Source: a virus. Taken from it: DNA of 34,015 nucleotides. The notes under the pieces were generated by a model. The model searched no databases. It was given only the letters and a program-made list of their open reading frames with translations, and was not told where the DNA came from. The translations under genes were made by a program, and so were the position numbers. Positions 31,158-33,660 of the stretch are shown here, in pieces. Location of the stretch: the IMG/VR virus record IMGVR_UViG_3300025585_000112, positions 1-34,015 of that record, one strand, 5' to 3'. The first letter of the stretch is position 1. Every line of letters starts with the position of its first letter.

Positions 31158-31248
31158 GGATTTTCCTTTCGATGCGAGGCGGGATGCCTCTGGGTATGCA
31201 CTCGATTGAATGCACACTCAGAGAGGCAGGGACAACCCTGCCACCCTG
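31158..31248 (-). other. short gene-free gap with hairpins
   Basis: The gap between the VWA-like gene and the Nmad5-like gene contains a stem-loop GGCAGGG-acaa-CCCTGCC at 31225-31242 directly after the VWA stop, and a smaller GAGGC-gggat-GCCTC at 31176-31190. There is no T-run after either on the minus strand, so they are not intrinsic terminators; processing or stabilising elements are possible. Confidence 0.5.
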
Positions 31249-32124
31249 TCACGCTACCTGCTGTTCAGGGTTGGCGATCTGTTCGAGAACAGATTTCAGC
31301 CATGCCTCGGCTCCAGTTTGATTCTTAACCGGAGGTTGAATGATTGCATTCTGAGGTATCGGCAGATGCTTGATTGCCTTGGCAATCAGCGTGTTGTTCG
31401 ATTGACCGAGACTGCTACGTGTTTCCTTGCCTAGTTGGTCATTCGACCAATAGATTCCGGCAAACAGGGAGGTTCTAAAGAACCCTGACAGTCCGGTGAG
31501 GGCTGCCAATCTGTCCATGTCCAGAGGAGAATCCTCTGCCTTGATTTCGACAAACTGGGCTACGTTCTCGTAACCCTCGACTGATACGTCGGCTGCACCT
31601 GCTGCACCGTAGATGGCTACAGAGTAGCCCGCCTTGGTCAACTCGTCGGCCAGTCGGAGACCGGATGCCCCTCTCCAGAACAGTTGTTCTGAGGTGACGT
31701 TGCTGTTTCCGGCAAGGTCGATCACAATCGAGACAGATCGAACAGATGCTCTGCTCTGTCGCTTGGTTCTAGACCAAGCCCTGCTCAGGTCGCCACGGTA
31801 CACGGCCTGCATGTCCAGCTCGTCGCCTTGATCGGCACGGACTCGACGACGACGGATGCTTGTCGGCTCGGGCAATTCCCCAAGGGGAATCTTGTCGATT
31901 CGCTCGGCTCCGGCTTGCCAACCTTTGGTTAAGACTTTGCGGAGAGCATCGACAGATGGCACACCGAGCCATGATGTATCAGCCTTACGGCTGAAGTGGC
32001 TGAGACCGGAGGTCTTATTGCTCTGGCTTTTCCAACCGTCGGCATTGAGAACAGATTCGGGTTCGGTGACGCTGTCCCAAAGGACAGCAGTCAGATCGTT
32101 GGATTTATCATAAATGCGGAGCAT
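31249..32124 (-). CDS. VWA-like protein paired with a MoxR-type ATPase
   Basis: The 291-residue protein reads as a von Willebrand A-like fold: VSIVIDLAGNSNVTSEQLFW (residues 131-150, a degenerate MIDAS-type D137-x-A-G-N), RGASGLRLADELTKAGYSVA, and AIYGAAGAADV. The N-terminus (MLRIYDKSNDLTAVLWDSVT) carries a Trp-rich domain, and residues 90-97 are an Arg patch (IRRRRVRA). VWA partners of MoxR ATPases usually bind the ATPase through metal-linked loops; here the third MIDAS Ser is replaced. The gene starts one base after the AAA+ gene stop. It likely acts as the ATPase's substrate adaptor. Coding sequence is unusually rich in perfect hairpins. Confidence 0.65.
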   Translation of the reverse strand: MLRIYDKSNDLTAVLWDSVTEPESVLNADGWKSQSNKTSGLSHFSRKADTSWLGVPSVDALRKVLTKGWQAGAERIDKIPLGELPEPTSIRRRRVRADQGDELDMQAVYRGDLSRAWSRTKRQSRASVRSVSIVIDLAGNSNVTSEQLFWRGASGLRLADELTKAGYSVAIYGAAGAADVSVEGYENVAQFVEIKAEDSPLDMDRLAALTGLSGFFRTSLFAGIYWSNDQLGKETRSSLGQSNNTLIAKAIKHLPIPQNAIIQPPVKNQTGAEAWLKSVLEQIANPEQQVA

Positions 32125-32125
32125 T

Positions 32126-33277
32126 TCAGACCTCTACTTTCTTGATTTCATCGGCTGACCAACCTTCAAAGAAGGTGGCCTTGATTTCTTCGACTGTCTC
32201 TCCGGCCTTGAGCAACTTCGTTGCATCGAGGAGGAATCGAGTCGACATAACTCGACGGAGTCGAGCCTCATTGATTCGTTTACGAATCGCCCAACCCCAA
32301 GCCAACAGGTCAGGGGCTACGGACTTTCTTTCGAAAGTCTGGTCATAGTCGAGGGAGATGACACCGGCACGGAATCTGTCCAATGTCGACTCATCGAGTC
32401 GTTCACGACCGGCATAAGTCTGGTTTGCTCCAGTACCGAAGGTATTGGCTGCTGCAATACAGACAAAGTCTGGATGACGTTTGACCAGTGATGCTCCCTT
32501 CCTGATCGGCAAAAAGAACGATCCATTGGCGAGAGCCTGATTCAGGAACAGCAAGGTATTGCTGTCTGCACCGTCGACTTCGTCGAAGAGGAATACACCA
32601 CCTTCTTCGTACATTCTGACGAAGTCAGATGTAAGGTATTGGAAAGAACCGCCGTCGGCAGGGATTAACCAGCCCTGAAGGGCTGACTCTGACATTCCGG
32701 CAGTGCAAGAGACCGATGCGAAGGGTCTACCAAGAGCTTCAGCTACTTGGTGACCGAGGTGAGTCTTACCGCATCCGGCAGGGCCGACCAACAGAATGTT
32801 GATGCCGAGAGATGCTCTGGTCAGAATTTTCTTAAATTCTGGTCGAGTGTGGCCTTCCACTTTGTGGGATGAGCCATCGGGTCGAACGACCTCGATTTTG
32901 ACGATTGGACTATCGTCCATCGCTTTTTTGACCTCTGTCATGACAATCTGTCGAACAGTGTCCTCATCAACTGTCGGAGACAGTAGGGCTTGAAGGGCTG
33001 CTAAAGCAGCAGTCGCATCGGCCTTAGGAGCCGAAGGCTTGGTAGTAGGTGGCACAGGGCGACCCTCCTCTGAGATAGCAACCCCTTTGGGGTTGACGGT
33101 TGGGATGCCGTTTGACATGGCATCAGTGATCTGACCTTCGGAGAAGGCCAGTAGTAATCTGTCGATCAAGTCCAATTTTTGGACGGTCTCGAAGTTGAAA
33201 CCTACGGTTCCACCGTTGAGGTGGCGGAAAATCCAGAGGATTTCTGGCTTGGAGAGGGAAACGAGGGAGTCACGCAT
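32126..33277 (-). CDS. MoxR/CobS-type AAA+ ATPase
   Basis: The 383-residue protein has a C-terminal AAA+ module (AAA_5): Walker A GPAGCGKT (residues 165-172), Walker B VFLFDEVD (228-235), sensor 1 AAANT (275-279), and LDESTLDRFRAG (295-306) with an arginine-finger-like Arg. The N-terminal 160 residues are helical with a Pro/Ala linker. Paired directly with a VWA-like gene, as in MoxR-VWA or CobS-CobT pairs, which remodel or insert metals into proteins. It would be the first complete gene of the leftward operon, with AAAGGAAA seven bases before its ATG. The target is unknown. Confidence 0.88.
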   Translation of the reverse strand: MRDSLVSLSKPEILWIFRHLNGGTVGFNFETVQKLDLIDRLLLAFSEGQITDAMSNGIPTVNPKGVAISEEGRPVPPTTKPSAPKADATAALAALQALLSPTVDEDTVRQIVMTEVKKAMDDSPIVKIEVVRPDGSSHKVEGHTRPEFKKILTRASLGINILLVGPAGCGKTHLGHQVAEALGRPFASVSCTAGMSESALQGWLIPADGGSFQYLTSDFVRMYEEGGVFLFDEVDGADSNTLLFLNQALANGSFFLPIRKGASLVKRHPDFVCIAAANTFGTGANQTYAGRERLDESTLDRFRAGVISLDYDQTFERKSVAPDLLAWGWAIRKRINEARLRRVMSTRFLLDATKLLKAGETVEEIKATFFEGWSADEIKKVEV

Positions 33278-33660
33278 GGGATTTCCTTTCGAATGCAGTG
33301 AGTTGCGATGAACCGGCTTAAAGCCGGAAAGTAGGACAGAGCGTCCAGTGCATAGCAGTCAGAGACTGCCATACCGTTGAAACTCTGTTGAGTGTTGACA
33401 GTCCTAAAGGACTGCATAGAGCCTCAAGGACACAAGGCAAAGCCTTGAACCAACCCTTCGGTGTTGTGTTGTTGACGGTTCCCACCGTGTGACAACTCCT
33501 CCGGAGTCCGACGCTACATCCCGCCGTTGGGGTCGAGAGACCTGTTCAGAGCGTCACTGTAGGATTTCGCTTAACTCTCTTCTACGAAGAGCTTCGCCTA
33601 TCTGTCCTACGGTGCTTTAGCACCTACTGAGTCTGCTTTCGGTTTGTTGCCGAATCGACG
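33278..33660 (-). other. hairpin-rich leader upstream of the AAA+ gene
   Basis: No gene is seen in this stretch. It contains perfect stems at 33313-33327, 33355-33369, 33399-33414, 33433-33447, 33475-33488, 33495-33507, 33577-33591, 33611-33624 and 33638-33654, roughly one every 35-40 bases. If transcribed leftward it would form a highly structured 5' leader; it could also be a separate structured RNA. GAAAGGAAA before the ATG at 33277 serves as ribosome binding site. Confidence 0.6.

Follow-up and report, generated by a model that had tools for sequence, protein, structure and literature searches.

An early end rich in minimal hairpins, possibly folding as DNA, in a podovirus-like phage

The promoter hairpins of phage N4 are short and closed by a sheared G:A triloop; physiological supercoiling, or less, is enough to extrude them, and the hairpin on the template strand withstands SSB (PMC4496689). 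Large surveys of inverted repeats use arms of at least 10 bp (PMC13155455) and are therefore blind to arrays of shorter stems, so that others may exist; in the open-access literature we have provisionally found no described equivalent of the array presented here. The stretch of DNA analysed, 34,015 nt in length and referred to below as the window, belongs to a tailed dsDNA phage, as indicated by its terminase, portal and major head protein genes. Our preferred reading, which we hold tentatively, is that the early end of this podovirus-like genome carries a selected array of minimal hairpins that probably folds as DNA.

Density and extent of the hairpin array

The array extends over the following features of the window.

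33800–34015, no strand assigned: hairpins upstream of the promoter, about 55–67 bp apart, with centres near 33818, 33873, 33940 and 33999
33667–33695, minus strand: predicted sigma70-like promoter (TTGACA-N17-TCAACT), read in the sequence and aligned, conserved in relatives
33278–33660, minus strand: non-coding structured leader with at least 5 hairpins, stems that covary, and G-U pairs on the sense strand
32126–33277, minus strand: AAA+ ATPase gene (383 aa; AAA_5, phrog_249), 14 hairpins against 2.1 expected
31249–32124, minus strand: second gene of the pair, termed VWA in the preliminary description (291 aa; Pfam DUF7192), 10 hairpins against 0.9 expected
31176–33300, no strand assigned: core of the array, 26 perfect inverted repeats, evaluated with codon-preserving shuffles
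30627–31217, minus strand: third gene (Nmad5-like), with 4 hairpins where codon shuffles give 0.9
26384–30630, minus strand: remaining leftward operon, with a weaker and declining hairpin excess

Hairpins were counted as perfect inverted repeats with a stem of at least 6 bp and a loop of 3–6 nt, and were compared with 500 shuffles in which synonymous codons were permuted while the protein and the codon usage were kept fixed. Within the core, the preliminary description had found 20 such hairpins by eye, ten of them with stems of at least 7 bp; exact counting gives 26 and 10, a stronger signal than claimed. The entire 34-kb window holds 102, with 0–4 per kb in most kilobases. The AAA gene contains 14 hairpins versus 2.07 ± 1.3 in the shuffles and the VWA gene 10 versus 0.90 ± 0.86, neither number being reached in any of the 500 shuffles, and the hairpin number of the late genes matches chance. 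Chance and codon bias, which the preliminary description had proposed to judge by just such shuffles, are thus ruled out. An assembly artefact is ruled out as well, since the array is found in contigs of many metagenomes.

At the start of the early block one perfect mini-hairpin occurs per ~55–85 bases, in coding and non-coding DNA alike. The limits first drawn around the array, 31176–33300, proved too narrow: the non-coding 33278–34015 is hairpin-dense too, and a density above background reaches down to ~26.5 kb. In related contigs the density climbs sharply 0.5–0.75 kb ahead of the AAA start codon, remains high across the AAA and VWA genes and returns to background by about +6 kb. Per-gene excess over shuffles, calculated for the window and three relatives, is 5.2–7.8-fold for AAA and 3.9–6.0-fold for VWA, mostly ~2–4-fold for downstream operon genes and mostly 1–1.8-fold for late genes. 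The array sets in upstream of the conserved sigma70-like promoter, at about −370 (first clade) or about −590 (second clade), within non-coding DNA adjoining the divergent terminase genes. A strict consensus scan misses this promoter, and in one relative (G005) its second hexamer reads TGCTAT. In another (L012), a gene inserted between the leader and AAA has hairpins as well, which indicates that position matters rather than gene identity. Together with the onset of the array ahead of the promoter and with AAA homologues of less than ~50% identity that have zero hairpins, this speaks against the earlier view of the array as a trait of these two genes; AAA+/VWA genes as such are rejected as its basis, because homologues in other phages lack hairpins.

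About 20 relatives, all of them uncultured contigs and down to 62% nucleotide identity, have 9–17 hairpins in the AAA gene: relatives whose AAA gene is at least 62% identical all have 9–14, and six further loci, belonging to the second clade, have 9–17. The densest 2 kb contains 14–29 hairpins in those clade loci that bear the array versus 2–10 in 32 other phage contigs; the dense hairpins of one unrelated contig (L094) are a simple AT repeat. The array is absent from the closest cultured phages by internal virion protein (Itty13, BcepIL02 and PBC5, ~31–34% identity), and a search with the VWA protein returned no relatives in cellular genomes.

Several neighbouring features were observed. The leader, conserved, covarying and ~380 nt long, precedes the AAA gene and is a candidate structured RNA; 33278–33660 matched no Rfam family. 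The Nmad5-like third gene is of a nucleotide-modification-associated kind and hints at modified DNA. Cumulative GC skew, taken as a guide to a replication origin, has no extreme at the array and in the first clade peaks ~5–8 kb downstream. A conserved GC-rich block, GGACGCACGC.ACGCA.GGCACGGCCACGCC, lies at ~7915–7990 of contig L041 and in the same place in L014 and L036, on the stretch that separates the terminase side from the first hairpins of the array, and could be a packaging site or a genome end.

Geometry and conservation of the stems

A stem-by-loop table, covering ten genes in nine genomes, confined the excess to stems of 4–8 bp with loops of 3 and 4 nt, the two loop sizes being equally common and holding the whole excess between them. 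Loops of 0–1 and 5–14 nt occur at chance level only, stems of 9 bp or more are nearly absent, and an apparent excess of 2-nt loops consists of the same hairpins counted with one extra pair. Plain stability does not explain this loop preference, because hairpins with 5–6 nt loops are about equally stable, whether in RNA or in DNA. Neighbouring hairpins prefer a distance of ~55 bp. In the upstream non-coding part, 77% of neighbour gaps measure 44–70 bp versus 23% in simulations; in the coding part, where gap counts are partly linked by homology, gaps of 50–60 bp are doubled and those below 30 bp are avoided.

Two known classes of short palindromic elements were rejected. Across 11 regions, 127 distinct hairpin sequences were counted, which bears out the earlier remark that the hairpins are not copies of one mobile repeat and rejects REP/MITE-type elements. 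Intrinsic terminators, in which a GC-rich stem precedes a U tract of the transcribed strand, are rejected as well: 8 terminator-like sites were counted where chance gives 4.8 ± 2.2, and most of them lie on the non-coding strand.

The claim that local nucleic-acid folding is under selection was borne out by sequence divergence. Between close genome pairs, fourfold synonymous sites differ at 3 of 170 positions in stems versus 138 of 1162 outside (1.8% vs 11.9%; Fisher p=6e-6), and at 5 of 50 positions in loops (10%) and 74 of 729 in shifted pseudo-stems. Compensatory changes, which the preliminary description had suggested seeking in homologues, are present: in a 12-sequence alignment, two-sided changes that keep pairing fill 42 cells versus 19.3 ± 3.1 in shuffles and 5–13 in slid controls. 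Examples in shared slots are AGC..TTG versus AGT..TTA and TCT-AGA versus AGT-ACT, and in the slot encoding TFFEG, TYFVG or TYFIG the pairs are TTC-GAA, TAC-GTA and TAT-ATA, respectively. Homologous hairpins share ancestry and are not independent, so that some p-values are optimistic. Purifying selection acts on the stems and spares the loops, a pattern that speaks against a loop-reading protein and against neutral template-switch repair. As for the earlier concern that homologues might keep the protein and lose the stems, the number of hairpins is kept, and individual stems are kept only in part: some sites are shared among relatives and some replaced, one relative (L017) having 13 hairpins mostly elsewhere. 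What is conserved is therefore the density of hairpins, whose sites turn over.

The folded molecule and competing explanations

Foremost among the alternatives is a role in early mRNA, in which a hairpin every 50–80 nt, strongest near the 5′ end, would compact the transcript, block Rho loading or host RNases, or keep nascent RNA off the template. The peak at the promoter and first genes and the decay along the operon agree with it, as density drops in the direction of transcription like an RNA feature, and the leader (33278–33660) keeps sense G-U pairs and reaches −68 kcal/mol as sense RNA, a better fold than the −53 kcal/mol of its antisense. Selection on mRNA folding should, however, let the coding strand tolerate G-U and not A-C. 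The AAA and VWA genes show no such preference: their one-mismatch stems include 24 with G-U versus 32 with A-C, each ~8.8 by chance, and their aligned slots give 10 versus 13. In the second clade, where perfect stems exceed expectation about tenfold, G-U was found 4 times versus 9.4 expected and A-C 9 times versus 9.6. The enrichment is one of Watson-Crick stems only. Downstream genes have more G-U (45) than A-C (26), without control for composition, and all of these counts are small and phylogenetically linked.

Folding energies and loops bear on the same question. Minimum free energy z-scores on both strands, as the preliminary description had advised, were strong for the sense strand against codon shuffles (AAA −5.5, VWA −6.9; control genes −2 to −3), in favour of an mRNA role, but equally strong for the antisense strand; folding gain is similar on either strand for these two genes, in contrast to control genes, where it is larger on the sense strand. 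GNA-type triloops, which are unusually stable in DNA, make up 34 of 88 triloops with both strands counted, versus a base of 17% (p=1.5e-6). Loops of the UNCG type, stable in RNA only (PMC8794818), were found in none of the hairpins, and the equal frequency of 3- and 4-nt loops, with loops of 5 nt or more absent, is unlike rRNA hairpins, where ~6% of loops have 3 nt and many have 5–8 nt (PMC8794818, Table 2). Hairpins also occur 120–590 bp upstream of the promoter. In this upstream DNA (33800–34015, and ahead of AAA in L036, L043 and L014) loops are inverted between relatives, as in TAC/GTA and TTTA/TAAA, so that the hairpin is preserved on either strand. Such reverse-complement loops at the same hairpin might also reflect an inversion of the hairpin or template switching.

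The RNA roles first proposed, namely a decoy, a target of an RNA-binding factor or nuclease resistance, are possible, but the G-U tolerance and mixed loop sizes they predict are absent from the coding part. The evidence leans to DNA folding over mRNA, though the better fold of the leader as sense RNA points the other way. We consider DNA the probable folded molecule and mRNA a rather unlikely one, the small remainder going to mutational or other causes, and rate the early mRNA role as a whole no higher. Inverted repeats of 6–8 bp should mostly fail to extrude from a DNA duplex, which counts against a DNA reading.

A mutational process acting in the place of selection, in which template-switch replication errors create and repair perfect short stems, appears quite improbable. 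Template switching does yield perfect stems and compensatory pairs (PMC8794818), and it would suit the inverted loops and the equal treatment of G-U and A-C. Neutral templated repair, however, should leave paired substitutions, and stems that two close relatives share have zero at fourfold sites; the low divergence of stems overall, the sharp localisation of the excess and the even spacing speak against it too. N4-type promoters, whose template-strand hairpins are the recognition signal for a virion RNA polymerase, are very unlikely despite stems and loops of similar size, GNA triloops, an early location, a giant virion protein and a mild hairpin excess at N4's own early end, given that stem and loop sequences are not conserved, dozens of hairpins lie within genes, a sigma70-like promoter is present and no single-subunit RNA polymerase was found with the PF00940 model, which barely detects N4 vRNAP.

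In our preferred reading of a selected DNA array, each unit is a perfect Watson-Crick stem of 5–8 bp with a 3–4 nt loop, followed by the next preferably 45–70 bp away, in an array that spans non-coding DNA, promoter, leader and first genes and fades over ~6 kb. By analogy with N4 promoter hairpins, we infer that either DNA strand would fold while the early end, having entered the cell, is single-stranded or under negative supercoiling. Situated beside the terminase genes, this end is perhaps the first to enter the cell, and once opened or underwound it would present a spaced structural pattern. Its job would be structural and sequence-independent; speculatively, a pattern of hairpins and SSB might hold the unwound end, or the array might absorb the torsion of early transcription or hinder single-strand nucleases. 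It is possible, although we are less confident of this, that synonymous choice has written a structural code into the genes of the early end: mini-hairpins or tiny cruciforms, set close together at even distances and independent of sequence, whose DNA structure host or phage proteins would recognise as the genome enters or early transcription proceeds.

Were the DNA reading true, a dsDNA phage would sacrifice codon freedom, and couple some amino-acid changes, to keep a physical structure over several kb of early DNA; events on phage DNA minutes after entry, such as strand opening, supercoiling, SSB coating and nuclease attack, would become testable; and the N4 hairpin principle would reach beyond three promoters to an entire region. 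Were RNA the molecule, the array would represent a new kind of ordered structure in the mRNA of a DNA phage.

Comparison with known systems

The early promoters of N4 resemble the array in a stem of 5–7 bp, a 3-nt loop of GNA character, a location in a podovirus early region and a probable action at the DNA level, although only part of the hairpins here have this geometry. N4 differs in having three promoter copies with conserved loop and stem bases just upstream of start sites, whereas the present hairpins number dozens, lie mostly within and throughout genes, differ in sequence and are accompanied by no recognisable polymerase: a search for T7-like RNA polymerase (PF00940) gave no match in six clade records, with the T7 and N4 RNAPII controls found and N4 vRNAP below cut-off. 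The window encodes a giant protein of 2415 aa (8526–15773, plus strand) with an LPD38 polyvalent-protein domain, whose ends are conserved among relatives and whose middle third is strongly divergent; its predicted structure reached a pLDDT of only 39. In N4 itself (L067), positions 1–5400 contain 15 perfect hairpins (stem of at least 6 bp, loop 3–4 nt), several within genes, and the early coding sequence has 11 versus ~4 by codon shuffles, beyond the known promoter hairpins.

The genome-scale ordered RNA structure (GORS) of RNA viruses shares pervasive local folding across coding sequence, kept by synonymous choice, and the folding energies of AAA and VWA likewise lie well below those of shuffles. 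In contrast to GORS, the array belongs to a dsDNA rather than an RNA genome, covers ~6–7 kb of ~50 kb at one operon end, and has strict 3–4 nt loops, no G-U preference, even spacing and an extension into upstream non-coding DNA. Mitochondrial genes of Nematomorpha also have many perfect inverted repeats within protein genes, with repeats of up to 284 bp there as opposed to stems ending at 8 bp here (PMC6649704). Template-switch hairpins (Monttinen and Loytynoja 2022, PMC8794818) have perfect stems, compensatory changes and loop inversions in common with the array, from which they differ in that the stems here are frozen by selection and both geometry and spacing are constrained.
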